Assembly: GCF_042453785.1 (NCBI RefSeq)
Contig: NC_091666.1
Coordinates: forward strand, 25,812,501-25,876,500
Source of the DNA: Malus domestica
Taxonomy: Eukaryota; Streptophyta; Magnoliopsida; Rosales; Rosaceae
Reading direction: 5' to 3'
DNA length: 64,000 nt
The position numbers and the translations under genes are program-made. Shown piece by piece: positions 7,762 through 17,160 of the stretch. Under the pieces are notes generated by a model. It saw only the letters and a list, made by a program, of their open reading frames with translations, made no database searches and had not been told where the DNA came from. Position 1 is the first letter of the stretch. Each line of letters begins with the position of its first letter.

Positions 7762-8846
7762 TTTATTATTGACGTTCAAGTTTATATTTTGCTTAACATT
7801 TGAACTAAGGTCAAGCAAGTTGAAGTTCTCAACATTTGTTAACGCTTTACAAGCACATATAATATTTAATATGGGAAGTTTTTTTCGCATCCTCGCATGC
7901 CTCTTCCTTTTTTCACAGTGACGAATTTTCAAACTTAAGACGTGAACAACATTTAGTAATTATTGATAAACACATGTACGTTTATATGAAGAAACGACAT
8001 TGGATTTATCATTTTGGTAATAATTTGTGTTTTTTTAGGAGAAATTGAGTGAGACTGAGGAGAAAGATGGAGGAGTTGAACAAGGATGAAGATGCACACG
8101 GGGCACAAATTGAGTGACGTGTAGCATGTGTGACTAGTAAGCTTCACACACAGAGCAATATGTTTTGATACCTGAAGAAAGTTGATATTTTACCATAAAA
8201 TCATTTAACAATGTAATGAGTAGTTCAACTCCTTATAAAAATATGAAAAGTTTAGTAAACTTTTGACGCAAGAGATTTCTTATATAGCTCACACAAGAAC
8301 AATATGTTGCACTGATAAACGAAAATTAAAATTTATGTCAAGTGCTAATATGCCAAGGACAAAGTATCTCTTGACTACAAGTTCTTAAGTGAAAAAATTG
8401 GGACTAATTGTTGAAAAGGAAATTATCATTATTAAGAGGAAAATAATTTCCACACATTATTTTTTTATGCACCCTCATATTTATTTATAATATTTTGAAT
8501 GAATTTAAGCAAATAAGAACCAATGAATAGAAATTTACACAACGAAAATAAACAATTTCATCTCAGAAATTACTACTCACGCCAGAATTTGTCAATTTAT
8601 CGAGTCTTCTAGTAGCACATCAAAAATAAACAATGTACATTAAAGACGAATATGCAGAAATAATTGTATTATCAAACCAAAAGCTAGGTCATGCACGCTA
8701 TACCGCGGTGGATTAGGAAGTGGACTTCGCGAGCATTACCGGGGGCCAGCGGCAGTGACTAGATCATTGCATAATGCAAAAAAAAGTGCAAGAAAACTGT
8801 TAAATGCAGTGCCCCAATGGAAGGCATTGACTTTCTCCTTAAAATA

Positions 8847-8850
<4 letters not shown>
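7762..8850. other. Intergenic spacer upstream of the NIP gene
   Basis: No gene or clear repeat seen. This is the distal upstream region of the aquaporin gene that follows. Confidence 0.4.

Positions 8851-8899
<49 letters not shown>
8851..8899. repeat. AG microsatellite in the NIP promoter
   Basis: About 24 AG units immediately upstream of the presumed core promoter (TATA at 8930). GA/CT tracts are common close to plant promoters. The length is likely to vary between cultivars. Confidence 0.9.
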
Positions 8900-8900
<1 letters not shown>

Positions 8901-8929
8901 TGGAGTTTGTACTGTCTCGATTTTCTGTT

Positions 8930-8939
8930 TATATATAAA
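8930..8939 (+). promoter_or_regulatory. TATA box of the NIP5;1-like gene
   Basis: The sequence tatatataaa follows the AG microsatellite. A start of transcription about 30 bp downstream would give a leader near 700 nt. That matches the unusually long leader known for Arabidopsis NIP5;1. The assignment is an inference from position and sequence. Confidence 0.5.
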
Positions 8940-9385
8940 CACACACATCTATGCATTTAAGCCTGACTGCCTCTGAGTTATCTAAAACATCCTTCTCTTC
9001 AATCCCTACGTCATATATCTATCTCTTCTTCAGCTCACCTCTGTTACAGTGCAATCCAATCCTCCTCCTTCTTCTTCTTTTGACCAGTTTCAGTCCTTTT
9101 CAAATCGTCTGCACTTTTCTGCTGTTTTGTTGCTCCGGTTTTGAACCTGGATCCTTACTTTTTCACCATTCTTCCTTAAACAAAACCTCAAAAAAAAATC
9201 ATTCCCAGCATGTAATCCAGACTTTAAATCACATCCCACAAAACCCCTTTCTCAGAAAAACCAAAAAAAAATTTGTTTGATTGCTTTTTGTTTGAAAAAC
9301 TAGAGCTATCCTTGTAGTGGGTACTCTGGATTTCTTCATTTCTTCTATCCCTTAACAAAAAAAATTATAAAAAAACCTTCGAAAT

Positions 9386-9391
9386 ATGTAA
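9386..9391 (+). promoter_or_regulatory. Upstream AUG-stop element 1 (ATGTAA)
   Basis: A start codon followed at once by a stop, 284 nt upstream of the NIP start codon. In Arabidopsis NIP5;1, AUGUAA elements in the leader cause boron-dependent ribosome stalling and mRNA decay. Flanking sequence (ttataaaaa about 20 nt before, acccaattc 22 nt after) is shared with element 2 at 9560. Function here is inferred from position and family. Confidence 0.7.
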
Positions 9392-9470
9392 CTTTTATCC
9401 TTCCAAAACCCAATTCCCAACCCAAAAACCCCTAAAAAAAAAAAAAAATTAGGTAAATTTTATTTTCGGT

Positions 9471-9485
9471 ATGTACTATCCATAG
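9471..9485 (+). promoter_or_regulatory. Four-codon upstream ORF in the NIP leader
   Basis: ATG TAC TAT CCA TAG lies between the two AUG-stop elements. It would be read only if this part of the leader is retained in the mRNA. A GT at 9453 and a pyrimidine-rich AG near 9660 leave open a leader intron that would remove it together with AUG-stop 2. Confidence 0.35.
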
Positions 9486-9559
9486 CCATATTGTCGTCCC
9501 CCACTCTGGCCACTATCAAGATTCTCGTGTAGAATTTTTTTTATAAAAATCGTCAAATT

Positions 9560-9565
9560 ATGTAA
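9560..9565 (+). promoter_or_regulatory. Upstream AUG-stop element 2 (ATGTAA)
   Basis: Second start-stop element, 110 nt upstream of the main start. Its surroundings resemble those of element 1: ttataaaaa 19 nt before and acccaattc 25 nt after. The pair thus looks like a diverged duplication of one regulatory module. It is expected to make translation and mRNA stability depend on boron. Confidence 0.7.
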
Positions 9566-9669
9566 CTCCGAGCTCATTCCCAGAACCCAATTCTCAAAAA
9601 CCAAAAAAAAAAAAAAAAAAATCTTTTTTGTTTTATCCTTTTTCTTTGTCTTGATTTTGGAAGCTTGAA

Positions 9670-12600
9670 ATGGCGGAATCTGAGCCAGTGACGCCGTCTG
9701 CGTCGGCGCCGGCGACGCCTGGGACGCCACTGCCACTGTTTTCAGGGCCGAGAGTGGATTCGCTATCGTATGAGCGTAAGTCAATGCCTCGAACCAAGTG
9801 CTTCCCTGTGAATGCTACTGCGTGGGGTCAATCTCCCACGTGCTTCAACGAGTTCCCTACTCCGACTGTCTCCCTCACCCGCAAGGTATGCAAAATGAAC
9901 TATAAACGGTTATGATGTGAGAATCTCTAGGATGTATATAAAAAGGATTTGGGAAGAATCTTCATCCCTCATAACCAATCCTTTTACTATGCACTTTACC
10001 AAAAATAATCCATTTACTATGCACCATTTTTTTGACATTTGTGGCTGTCATATGATTGAGAGGTTTATTCGAGTTTAGGTTCGTTTGGTGTCCGGGATAG
10101 AACAAAGAGTAACCAATTGAAATGGAACTCTACTTTCGGTTTTTTGTTTAGTACATATAATTAAAAATTAAACCCCCACTTTAATACGATAAACCATCTA
10201 ATTTAGTTCCTGTCAACCTTAATTTACTCGGTTGCTAAGTTATACTTGAACGAATAATAGTATGAAAATAAAATTATTAGTGTCTCAATTTAAATATTGT
10301 CACCTCCATTGGTGTTTAAAACTTGACAAAATGAATTTCATATCGAAAGAAAATATTTTGATACTGCTTTGGTGCATTATTGTTGGTGCTTCAACGGTGA
10401 CGTATTTACAGTTTCAGTCATGAAGTTGAAAATATACAAAAAGCTGGATATATTATTATTTTGTTAGAAAAAGATTAATAATTTGTCTATAAATTAATAA
10501 ATAAACACATGCTCGGGAGAAAAGCATTTTGTCCGTACTCTCAATTATTTAATAGAAGAAACAAATTGGTTAGGGTTTGACTCCTATTGATACACATTAG
10601 AAACGAAAGCTTTTCACCTGCTCTACATATATTTTAGCAAACCGCCCTTTTAATCGATTTATTTTTTGGCCGTGGTCCTTAAGCAACTTGGTCGGTTCTT
10701 AACAAACCTCTATAATTTATCCCAAAAAAAAAAAAACCTCTATAATTTGAATAAAGTATTGGGATTAAAATAAATCCAGGACGGCTAGTCCGAAGGGATA
10801 TACTTTTGAAGAAGTTAATTTATCCAACAAAAAAAAAAAGAAATTAATTTCATATTCGGCATGTGGTCTACCTTCTACCAGTATTTCTTTTTAAATAATA
10901 GGAAAAGAAGAAAAAAGTAAACTGCATATGTATAACATATGTCGTTCTTAGTTGTCATCATCCTAATGTCAAACTTATTTTCTTTCCCGAAAATATGCAT
11001 ACGATGCTAGTAGAACCATGCCTTAAGAATTCATGTCTAGGCTTTTCAACACGATCGATAATGCTACTCAAACACTTTCAAGTGCTTTACGCTTTATTGC
11101 ACGTCTATTAGCTAAGATCCATTCATTGTGCTTTGAGAACTTTTTAAGGTTTCAACATTTGAAAATGCATTTTTGATGGTGGGCATTACCAAAGAAAGTT
11201 AAAAAGTATTCCCAACAAGAACATCTCATTGGGCAAAAGCTTTGTTCATTACACATTTAAAAAATGCTTGCACTTTAGCCGCTAGGGTTAGCTTAGTGGT
11301 GAGGATGGACCGTGTGATATGAGTAAGTTTTGAAGGTTTCAGAGTTGAATCAGCGGTTCATAACTAATCACATTTATATTGTCCACAAAAAGTCTCTGTT
11401 CAATTAGAGGTGAAATTATGCAATACAAGTTGTACTTTATCTTGTGAAGTTTCAAAAAAAAGATTCCATTATCCAACACATGAATTACGTTCAGAGTTCA
11501 AATTCCTCCAATGTAGTAAAGAAAATGTGTATGCTAAGAGAGGCACGTTAAATAAACCCTTTACACTTTAGCATACCGATTTAGAAAAAACTCGTTCAAC
11601 CGATTAAATTAGAGAAATCAGTCTAAACCAATTAACAATGAGTGGAGAAGTTTCGTAGCGGTTAGTTATATAACGTTACACAAAACTTTAATTTCCTGAT
11701 GTGGGATAATAACTAATTTTGATCAACATTATGTAGCTTGGAGCTGAGTTCGTAGGAACCTTCATCTTGATGTTTGCAGCAAGTGCTGGACCAATCGTGA
11801 ACCAAAAGTACAACGGAGCAGAGAGCTTGATCGGAAATGCAGCATGCGCAGGGCTTGGCGTGATGATCGTGATTCTCTCCACTGGCCACATCTCTGGTGC
11901 GCATCTGAACCCATCTCTCACCATTGCATTTGCCGCCCTCCGACACTTCCCGTGGGTCCAAGTCCCAGCCTACATCGCAGCTCAGGTTTCGGCCTCCATT
12001 TGCGCCTCGTTTGCTCTCAAAGGGATTTTCCATCCGTACATATCCGGCGGAGTCACGGTGCCTACTGTGAGCACTGGCCAGGCTTTTGGACTTGAGTTCA
12101 TCATCACTTTTAATCTGTTGTTCGTTGTCACTGCTGTTGCAACTGACACTCGAGCGGTATGTAAATATATCAACCTCACATAAATTTGATTGTTCATATC
12201 TCAGATTCTTTTAACTAATTTCAAATATATTCTGTCTTTCTAATGCGCTTGGGATTTGGTGACATGCAGTTGGGAGAATTGGCTGGTTTAGCAGTTGGGG
12301 CTACTGTCATGCTAAACATTCTTATTGCAGGGTTAGTACTTCATCTCTCTCTCTCTCTCTCTCATTTTATCCTTCTTAATGCTATTTATCTACTATTGGA
12401 CTGCTTTGTGATTTAGTTATAATTAGGGTTTATTTGAAAATAATTTAAGTTTTAATTTTATGTTCTCATTTAAAAAAAGAATAAAACCAAAAACTAAAGG
12501 AAAAAAAATTGCAAATGGCCTTTTATTATAGTGGTGGAAAGATGTTGAGCATGATGGCGTGGATTTAAACTCCGTCGGTGGCTAATCTAACAAAATCTAA

Positions 12601-13652
12601 AGCCTTTTTTTTTTTGCTTTATTTATTTTTTTCTATGAATTCATATATAATTGTGGGTAGGTGACTTTTTCTTATTTTTATCAAATTGTAATAATAGTCT
12701 GCAAATTTTGTTATTACTTATTTTCAATATAATGCTCCACATAATTACTTTTCTTTCGTGATAAAGTTAATGGTGTATGTGTGTTAGATCAATTTGTCTT
12801 TGTATTTGCCTATCTAGCATCAAACTATATCTTCTTCGTAAATTGAAGTGGTTTAAACTATCGTATTGTCTAAAAAATTATTTTGAGTAGTCTCATTTAT
12901 GCTCGAGTATCGTTAAATTAGCACCCTATAAGAAAACAAAGTTTTCCCATCATTGACTAGCTGAAAAAGAAAAAGAAAAAGCAAACTAAAGAAACCCTTG
13001 TTGATGCTTAAATTTTTTGTCTTAATTTAATTATTATGTTTCCCAATTACAATGGGTATTTGTTCAAAACAAATAAAATGGTCGACAAATAAATATAGAC
13101 TTATCACAATGTACTACAAAAAGTGACTCATCCCTACAAAATAATAATGGAAATCATATAGCTAACGTATACACATATCCCTGATACAAACAAAGTTAAG
13201 CTTGTCATTTGTTTGTTTTTGTTGGGTTGGAGGGTGGGCAAGTTGGTAGCTCCCACAGCAATCAAAACAGTTTCATGCACACTCATCATCCTCATGTTGG
13301 CATAACGCCACATAATTGAAAGGGAAAAACTCGATGGTGGTGTGTTGTTTTTGTTATCATCTTAGCATTTCCCTCCTACACCCCAAGTCTAAAGATAAAA
13401 GATTCCAGCGGAATGTAGTACTGAAAATTAGGGTTTTGTTTTGGCGTTGGCAGGCCATCTAGCGGTGGTTCAATGAACCCGGTGCGCACTCTAGGTCCCG
13501 CTGTCGCCGCCGGAAACTACACGAAGTTGTGGATATACCTAGTGGCTCCTACCCTTGGAGCTCTCGCCGGGGCGGCCACCTACACAGCTGTGAAGCTCCG
13601 GGAAGATGAAGTGGATGCACCTGTGCGCGAGGCCAGGAGCTTCCGTCGCTAG
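9670..13652 (+). CDS. NIP5;1: NIP5;1-like boric acid channel (aquaporin family)
   Basis: Four exons join in frame: 9670-9885, 11737-12156, 12270-12331 and 13454-13652, giving 298 aa (Arabidopsis NIP5;1 is of similar length). The protein is a plasma-membrane channel of the nodulin-26-like group that imports boric acid and possibly other metalloids. Both pore loops are visible: HLNPS at about 130-132 and SMNPVR at about 241-244. The NPS/NPV pair is the signature of NIP5;1, whereas NIP6;1 has NPA/NPV. The N-terminus contains a TPGTPLP proline motif and the C-terminus ends in RSFRR, as in the family. The start is the first ATG of the long frame and sits after two AUG-stop elements. Introns of 1,851, 113 and 1,122 bp separate the exons; intron 3 begins next to a CT repeat. 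No break is seen. Confidence 0.93.
12535..12592 (+). repeat. SINE-like fragment in NIP intron 3
   Basis: Shares the block ccgtcggtggctaatctaac with a repeat at 18103-18180. The preceding ggatttaaactc resembles a decayed tRNA-type B box. Probably an old tRNA-derived SINE fragment. Confidence 0.4.
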
Positions 13653-14689
13653 AGCTATAAAAGGGCACGAATACGTAGGACAATAATCTCTTGTCATGCA
13701 GTTTTTCGTGTTATGTTATTTAGTTATTAATCTAGATTATTGATAAGATGAAAATCTTATTAATTTTCTTTATTATAAAAGGGAATAACAATATGATAAC
13801 ATAGCATACGAAAACGATTGCAAAACATATTACCTTAAGTATGCTTAGTCCCTTGCATGGTTTATACGATATGATATGACGTGATTAGATATCTTAAGAC
13901 AAGTTTGATAAGAATAAAGGGAAGGGCGGGAGATATATGTAAGATGTGATGGAAAGTCTTGCCCCCTGGCCCATTTGGCTTTTCACTATAAAGAAGTGTG
14001 TGATATCATCTCTCACAAGGTCATTGTCCGATCGGATGGTCCTGCGAGAAGACTTCGGATGGGATCTGTTTGTTTAATTTGTGTTATGTAGTTCTTTTGT
14101 TTTCTTTTCTTTTCTGCGTTCGGAAAGTGACTTTATGTAAAAACTGCATGCAGTATGATGCATGGTTTGATAAATAAATAAAGTTTGTGTGATAAAATGG
14201 ACTTTGATTTGATCTGCTGCATAGTTTAATTTGGTACATGCATGGCTGGATCTGCCGACCATATCAATTATACTAAATTACGTTACGTGGAGAGGAGGTT
14301 TGACGGTATATGCACCCTAGTATGAGAGAGATGCAGGTAATAACGTTACCAGATGAGGAATGTTAATATTACAAGTGTATATAATCATAATTAATTTTTA
14401 GCAGAGAATTCCATAATGATTTGACTTAATATTATTCTAATTAAAGTTCAAGAGGCAAGTGCCCCTTGACCACATTGGTGAAAAAGTGTTTTGCGCTTGC
14501 ATGAATTGCGTAAGTTCAAATCCAAACGATGACTAATCTAACATGTAACTTATTAACGCAATCACTCAAATAAAAATAAAAAATAAAAAAAGTTCGACAA
14601 GTCTTGTGTTGTTTGTCCAAGGGTGATCGTGGTTGACCGGTTAGTGAAGGTGTTAAGGGTGATGGTGTTGGTACGGTGGAGTTGTTAGT
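13653..14689. other. 3' flank of the NIP gene and spacer
   Basis: Contains the presumed 3' UTR with several AATAAA-like signals near 14175. A further diverged SINE-like stretch around 14462-14560 includes gactaatctaacatg. No gene is supported. Confidence 0.4.
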
Positions 14690-15429: not shown

Positions 15430-17160
15430 TACAAGGAGACAACTTTATCTAAACTTTATCCACCACATATTGATAAGTTGCACTATTAACCCTTTTATGC
15501 AATAAAGGAACTCCAAGATATGTCCCAAGCGAGATAGCCACATTTGAGCGGCATATCTTGCTGATTTTACGAGCCACTCTTCTCCTAGTATTCAAAGAAA
15601 CAAAAAACTTTGACTTATCAAAATTTATTAATTCACCAGAAAAAGCACAGAACTTAGCAATGCACGACTTGACAATCTTTGCTGGTGAAATAGTACCTTT
15701 AGTAAAAACAAGAAGATAATCTGCAAAAAATAGGTGGGAAATACCAAGACCTCTTCTTAAGACTTCTGGCAGGTTTCCATTTTTATTATTAACTTCATGG
15801 GTAATCAAATGACTTAGCTTCTTCATACAAATAACAAAAAGGTAAGGAGAAAGAGGATGTCCCTGTCTTATATCACAACCTGGTTGAAACGCATCAGTAA
15901 GTTCACCATTAACAATAGCTCTGAAATTGACATAATTTATACAACTTAAGATGATCTAGAGTAAACTTCCATTAATACCAATTTCAAAAAGAATATAAGC
16001 AACAAAACCCCACGATAATGTGTTATAAGCATTAGATAAATCAAATTTTCAAGCCAAGAAGCCATTTTTTCCTCTAGCAAGCTTAAATTTATGTAAAACT
16101 TCCTGAGCTAAAGCACCAGAAACAAAATTAAATTAATTTGGGCTAATAATTTTCTCCATTATAGGCTGCAACTTGCAAACCAGAAGTTTGGCAACTACTT
16201 TATACATTGTATGTAGTACATAAACTGGTGGGCCTAATTAGAGTCATAAAAATTGGATTAGGAACTTTAGGTAATAAAGTGCTAAGCGTTTCATTTATAC
16301 CAAGAGGAATTTTGCTATGCTAAAAAAAATATTGAACATAAGTGATGACGCCGTTAGCACTACGATCTCTAAACTTTAACAACTTGAGCATTAAGATCTC
16401 TAACTTCTTCCTCCAACAACGGGGGTGGAAAAACAAAAACTTAGGCATTACGATCTCTAACTTCTATCAGTGAACAAATCTTTGAAATAATTAACCACCA
16501 CAGCTTTCAGATCCTGTTGACCCTCCTTCCAAACACCAGAACCATCTTCAAGTCCTTCCAACCTGTTTTTCCTCCTTCTAATAAGAGTAAACATATGAAA
16601 GAATTTGGTGTTTCTATGCCGTCTTTAAGCTTAGAAACTCTGAATTTTTATTTTTTTACAAAAACATGCTTCCTGATCATTTAAGATTAATAATCTTGGA
16701 ATAACTTATCTTCTAAATCAATGAGAAAGCTTCACATTCAAAGCTTTTTGGATACCTTGGATTTGATAAAAAAAAATAAAGTTCTTATGAAAAAAAATTC
16801 CCAAAGATCTCCTAATTCCACTTTTGAAGAACCCCTCTTTAAACGCATTGAGTTTGAAAGCAATATCATGGTTATTGGTATACCAATTAGGATGCACATG
16901 TTCTTCGAAACTCTCATGTTGCAGCAACATGGCCTCAAATCCAAAAGGTTTGAGAGTAGCTCAAGAAACTTTGTTTAATAACAAACTGATTAATAAAGAA
17001 TTGTGATCAGAGCTAAGCTTGGGTAAATGCTTCACGAAAGTATCAGGAAAAACAACTCTCCAAGAAGGATTACAAATAGCCTTGTCAATACGCTGCTTAA
17101 TAACCTCACTGAAATACCTCTTGTGACCTAAGTGTACTTACTGCCCATAAAACCCATATC
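15430..17160 (-). pseudogene. Decayed LINE (non-LTR retrotransposon), ORF2 remnant
   Basis: Read on the minus strand, the sequence gives the end of an endonuclease domain (QRIDKAICNPSW, then LPKLSSDHNS at about 17000-17110). A linker (MLLQHESFEEH, 16930) follows, and then reverse transcriptase with SHLFFADYLLVF and YLGVPLLHKR near 15470-15760. The active-site ADD box reads ADY and in-frame stops occur, for example just after the endonuclease. The order endonuclease then reverse transcriptase fits plant L1-type LINEs. The 3' end stops near 15430 without a clear poly-A tail. A pyrimidine-rich leader with tandem cagcctc units extends to about 17745 and may be its 5' region. It is an inactive copy. 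Confidence 0.75.

Follow-up and report, generated by a model that had tools for sequence, protein, structure and literature searches.

A leader with two AUG-stop modules in series, very probably a boron switch, in an apple NIP5;1-like gene

Whether the 5' leader of a boric-acid channel gene of apple (Malus domestica) carries the boron switch known from Arabidopsis, and in what form, is the question raised by the locus considered here. The AUG-stop boron switch in the 5'-UTR of Arabidopsis thaliana NIP5;1 was reportedly described by Tanaka et al. in Plant Cell in 2016. An earlier note on the 64,000-nt stretch of apple DNA analysed here (the window) had claimed that it contains a NIP5;1-like gene and that the leader of this gene has two ATGTAA, each embedded in a copy of the same module. 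In Arabidopsis, the NIP5;1 leader is likewise described as having two AUG-stops, at which ribosomes are stalled by boron (PMC11915504, PMC12666852, PMC7503886). A conserved region 12-19 nt upstream is stated to enhance decay, in a sentence of the source that is itself awkward (PMC12666852), and the 5'-UTR is reported to be well conserved across species, most of all around AUGUAA (PMC9208793).

The claim that the gene is NIP5;1-like is supported by its sequence. The exons are given in the table below; the boundaries of exons 2 and 3 were set to fit GT-AG. The product belongs to the MIP family (PF00230, E 5.5e-51), and, of its solved relatives, the plant aquaporin NIP2-1 comes first (E 1.9e-62); an alignment of the two by eye gives a selectivity filter of A-I-G-R. 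The combination of NPS and NPV motifs with an A-I-G-R filter is what we take to be the signature of NIP5;1, NIP6;1 presumably having Ala at the third place, and these features point to a predicted boric-acid channel of the NIP5;1 type. The sequence GASMNPVR of a paralogue on contig C17 is, we assume, a NIP6;1-like signature. This gene was considered as a further carrier of an AUG-stop and rejected: its 9.9-kb piece has a single ATGTAA, which stands about 20 nt downstream of a TATA-like box and, as judged by eye, probably outside the leader. A paralogue on C9 is 79% identical over a 141-aa piece of exon 2; its exon 1 and leader were not found at the locus. It is one of two adjacent NIP5/6-like genes at 9.993-9.998 Mb of that contig (G000:C9; L026, L027), arranged in tandem and possibly decayed. 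In the window itself, an open frame at 15449-15955 on the minus strand resembles, by eye, part of a LINE-type reverse transcriptase.

Table. Features of the NIP5;1-like gene and its leader (positions in the window; C14, contig of the homeologous gene)
Feature	Positions	Strand	Remarks
TATA-like box	8928..8942	+	TTTATATATAAACAC; C14 has similar TATATATAAACACAC in the same place
Third, most distal AUG-stop, AUGUAA	9210..9215	+	-460 from main AUG; without UAUA element
TTATAAAAA element, module B	9365..9373	+	21 nt before ATG; 2 nt off the -19..-12 position
AUG-stop, module B	9386..9391	+	-284 from main AUG; C14 counterpart L025:2189
ACCCAATTC, downstream of module B	9408..9416	+	C14 version is ACCAAATTC
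Four-codon uORF MYYP, between modules	9471..9485	+	AUG UAC UAU CCA UAG; on C14 at L025:2271
TTATAAAAA element, module C	9541..9549	+	TTATAAAA exactly at -19..-12
AUG-stop, module C	9560..9565	+	-110 from main AUG; C14 counterpart L025:2360
ACCCAATTC, downstream of module C	9585..9593	+	C14 version identical
Exon 1, NIP5;1-like	9670..9885	+	main AUG 9670; tblastn with joined protein and splice check
Exon 2, NIP5;1-like	11737..12156	+	first NPA-type motif is NPS; end at GT donor
Exon 3, NIP5;1-like	12270..12331	+	start after CAG
Exon 4 and stop, NIP5;1-like	13454..13652	+	second motif is NPV

The AUG-stops are placed in the leader because of the transcript start predicted from the TATA-like box at 8928. 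A 25-nt block just below this box (8955-8979) is identical in the gene in the window, which spans 25812501-25876500 of contig C6, and in its homeolog on C14, and a start at about 8960 would give an unspliced leader of about 710 nt. Within this leader both ATGTAA and their flanks are found as the earlier note had described them: the distance from the start of the upstream element to the ATG is 21 and 19 nt, that from the A of the ATG to the start of the downstream element is 22 and 25 nt, and the spacings of the three elements are 174, 176 and 177 nt, i.e., the 174-177 nt that had been claimed. A UAUA-type element 12-19 nt upstream is in the exact position for 9560, is shifted by 2 nt for 9386 and is absent at 9210. 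The natural module consensus is UUAUAAAAA-N-CUUCAAAUUAUGUAACU. The word ACTCTGG also occurs twice, at 9323-9329 and 9503-9509, about 60 nt (63 and 57) before the two AUG-stops; its first copy reads ACACTGG on C14.

The similarity of the two sites might be an accident of an A/T-rich leader, or the result of a recent neutral duplication without function; the leader has 34% G+C and many A runs, which dominate its repeat list. ATGTAA alone is a common word, with 45 sites on both strands of the window and 58.4 expected. When all 990 pairs of these sites were compared by the similarity of their flanks, the pair 9386/9560 came first with a score of 46, the pair 9210/9386 second (33) and the pair 9560/16091 third (29), the top-scoring pair without any leader site reaching 27. 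None of 400 dinucleotide shuffles of the 9386/9560 flanks reached the real score (10 of 400 for the left flank alone and 1 of 400 for the right), and because of this result and the first rank among 990 pairs the pair is no product of chance. The module pair on C14 scores 61, which was reached in none of 2000 shuffles, and the same is true of its left flank. The right flank on C14 fails this test (218 of 2000 shuffles reach the real score), and the downstream part of the module is therefore not robust in the homeolog. Since both modules are present in both homeologs and Arabidopsis also has two AUG-stops, the two-module arrangement must be regarded as old. An accident or a recent functionless copy, against which the shuffles, the homeologs and Arabidopsis all speak, is thus extremely improbable, and the claim of a genuine repeated module, with flanks similar beyond chance and kept in the homeologous gene, is borne out.

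The number of AUG-stops tells less than their flanks. Three or more ATGTAA were found in a 710-nt leader in 3 of 3000 shuffles, and since three ATGTAA also form a second cluster at 13937-14543, spanning about 600 nt on the 3' side of the gene, the count in the leader alone is only moderately unusual. Between the predicted start (~8960) and the main AUG, three of the four upstream AUGs on C6 are AUG-stops, as are three of the five in the stretch scanned on C14. The ATG at 8951 is excluded from this count as lying above the predicted start, and its C14 counterpart is aligned but falls outside the scanned stretch. In the window, TAA follows 1.74% of the ATGs; at this rate, at least three of four would have a chance probability of about 2e-5, a figure that is post hoc and leans on the predicted transcript start.

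The homeologous gene makes it possible to look at the history of the modules. The leader (8960-9669) aligns to C14 with 581 of 742 columns identical, and all three AUGUAA and the MYYP uORF are retained there. The C14 modules read TTATAAAAAACCTTCAAATTATGTAACT and TTATAAAAATCTTCAAATTATGTAACT and are closer to each other than are the two on C6. Most simply, this would mean that the two modules were both close to one common sequence before the homeologs parted and that C6 then drifted by a few bases. Identity between the homeologs is 82-84% in the three AUG-stop segments, 84.5% and 86.3% in the two spacers, 83% in 9606-9669 and only 66% far upstream, in 8960-9174. Because the modules do not surpass the intervening spacers in identity, footprinting by the homeolog adds little. 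Of the individual 21-nt windows, the one at 9210 is identical between the homeologs, with 2.3% of windows equally good, and those at 9386 and 9560 are ordinary, 47.7% and 24.3% of windows, respectively, being equally well kept.

The occurrence of module-like patterns elsewhere in the genome (651 Mb, 19 contigs) was assessed by pattern searches with reversed patterns as controls, in which only the best candidates were scored, so that the counts may be lower bounds. The pattern TATAAAAA-N9..13-ATGTAACT has at least 21 matches, versus 19 for the reversed control. Among the 21 matches listed, four are the two modules on C6 and the two on C14; the other 17, which lie outside both NIP5;1 leaders, were rejected as further modules, their number being about that expected by chance, as the control indicates. 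The upstream core TATAAAAA-N1..6-TCRAAWTATGTAA gives four listed matches, all of them the four homeolog modules, and one in the control; it was built from those four copies and therefore demonstrates rarity elsewhere and is no independent test. For ATGTAACT-N12..20-ACCCAATTC, four matches are listed versus two in the control, three of them in the NIP5;1 leaders, module B of C14 being unmatched. At a locus on C3 (L030, G000:C3:3934400-3934435), ATGTAACT followed by ACCCAATTC is found about 317 nt before an open frame of 394 aa, whose start resembles, by eye, a leucine-rich-repeat receptor kinase; this is possibly another leader AUG-stop. In the viral contigs searched, three stretches match a pattern and none is a relative.

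Do both modules reach the mature mRNA? It is conceivable that only one does, module C being lost with a leader intron at about 9453-9583 or the start of transcription falling between the two modules. Such an intron would be framed by a donor-like TAG/GTAAAT at 9453, which matches the consensus at 7 of 9 positions, and by an acceptor-like CCCAG that ends at 9583; these words also occur on C14, the donor slightly changed. However, the candidate intron has 63% A+T, which is not above the 66% of the whole leader and compares with 68-71% in the three introns of the gene, and the TATA-like box at 8928 argues against a start between the modules. The Arabidopsis transcript, moreover, is described with both AUG-stops (PMC12666852, PMC7503886), and a construct from which the -122 AUG-stop was deleted is reported to have lost the boron response of transcription (PMC11915504). 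We therefore consider a single-module mRNA unlikely and a mature leader with both modules probable. The leader has no RNA structure beyond that of shuffled sequences (z 0.60, with folds at least equally good in 14 of 20 shuffles), and a search of 8700-9800 against Rfam at gathering thresholds gave 0 matches.

The count of two AUG-stops proved too low, since there are three above the main AUG: the one at 9210 had been missed, as had the MYYP uORF at 9471. The distal AUGUAA lies within a 25-nt block (9198-9222) that is identical on C14, and the -19..-12 place before it is all A. As a full third module it was rejected: on C6 the likeness of its flanks to those of the other two sites was reached in 48 of 400 and 45 of 400 shuffles. 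On C14 it was reached in 3 of 400 shuffles for one pair, which is suggestive, and in 118 of 400 for the other. Tentatively, and with more doubt than conviction, one may imagine the three AUG-stops of the leader as an array of three steps that divide the labour: the site at 9210, which has no UUAUAAAA, would do no more than pause or meter ribosomes, and the two proximal modules would trigger decay. If true, the response to boron could be steeper, or extend over a wider range, than that of the two-step leader of Arabidopsis. The site at 9210, being an AUGUAA that lacks the UAUA element, also offers a natural contrast for separating stalling from decay.

By analogy with Arabidopsis, we consider it highly likely that the 5' leader of this NIP5;1 boric-acid channel gene carries the known boron switch in the form of two modules in series, and the repeated start-stop signal is very probably a means by which ribosomes sense boron. 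The two modules are, judging from their sequences, very probably orthologues of the two Arabidopsis AUG-stops. Scanning ribosomes would start at AUGUAA and terminate immediately. At high boron, boric acid would stabilise eRF1 on the 80S ribosome at the AUG-stop, so that the ribosome pauses and does not re-initiate. Located 12-21 nt upstream, the UUAUAAAA element would promote decay of the mRNA, which would be cut behind the paused ribosome; less channel would then be made and boron uptake would be limited. With modules B (9386) and C (9560) in series, a ribosome or an mRNA that escapes one would meet the other. Stalling, decay and boron dependence at the apple leader are all carried over from Arabidopsis, where eRF1 on the ribosome at the AUG-stop is described as stabilised by boron and the cut ends as lying 13-14 nt upstream (PMC11915504); the serial action of the two modules is proposed here. 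It had also been proposed that the conserved flanks mark what stalling needs. This is not supported: the cited work ties the upstream flank to decay, and the downstream motif fails the C14 shuffles.

The AUG-stops could also act only as ordinary inhibitory uORFs that lower translation of the main frame independently of boron. All three have A at -3 and should therefore be read, and AUG-stops are widespread: in adult leaves of Arabidopsis, 153 translated AUG-stops are reported, 119 of them with more footprints at high boron (PMC11062462). Nevertheless, the orthology to the Arabidopsis switch, the matching position of the UUAUAAAA element and the repetition of the whole module, which extends beyond the six bases, make this explanation very unlikely, and a boron-responsive pair of modules remains the preferred one.

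The apple leader is like that of Arabidopsis NIP5;1 in having two AUGUAA with the conserved region 12-19 nt upstream. The distance from UAUA to AUGUAA is 17 nt at the Arabidopsis -122 site, as follows from a construct named -139 UAUA / -122 AUGUAA (PMC11915504), versus 18 nt at the -110 site (module C) of apple. Unlike the Arabidopsis leader, which is described with two, the apple leader has the third AUGUAA at -460, without UAUA, in both homeologs, and its predicted length of about 710 nt compares with the -558 of the Arabidopsis constructs. In apple the MYYP uORF sits between the modules. The 5'-UTR of Brassica napus BnaA3.NIP5;1 is reported to have two conserved uORFs, its expression being tuned by a CTTTC repeat (PMC8279314). 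The 5'-UTR of rice OsNIP3;1 (DTE1) is reported to be highly conserved with that of AtNIP5;1 and to be boron-responsive in protoplasts (PMC12666852). The novelty implied by the earlier note thus falls away, since the two AUG-stops of Arabidopsis and a pair of conserved uORFs of Brassica napus had already been described.

The principle of the switch is already published, and the third AUGUAA at -460 is a modest extra. What the apple locus provides is a NIP5;1 layout with two modules that is kept in both homeologous copies of another plant genome, which may be of use for boron nutrition in apple.
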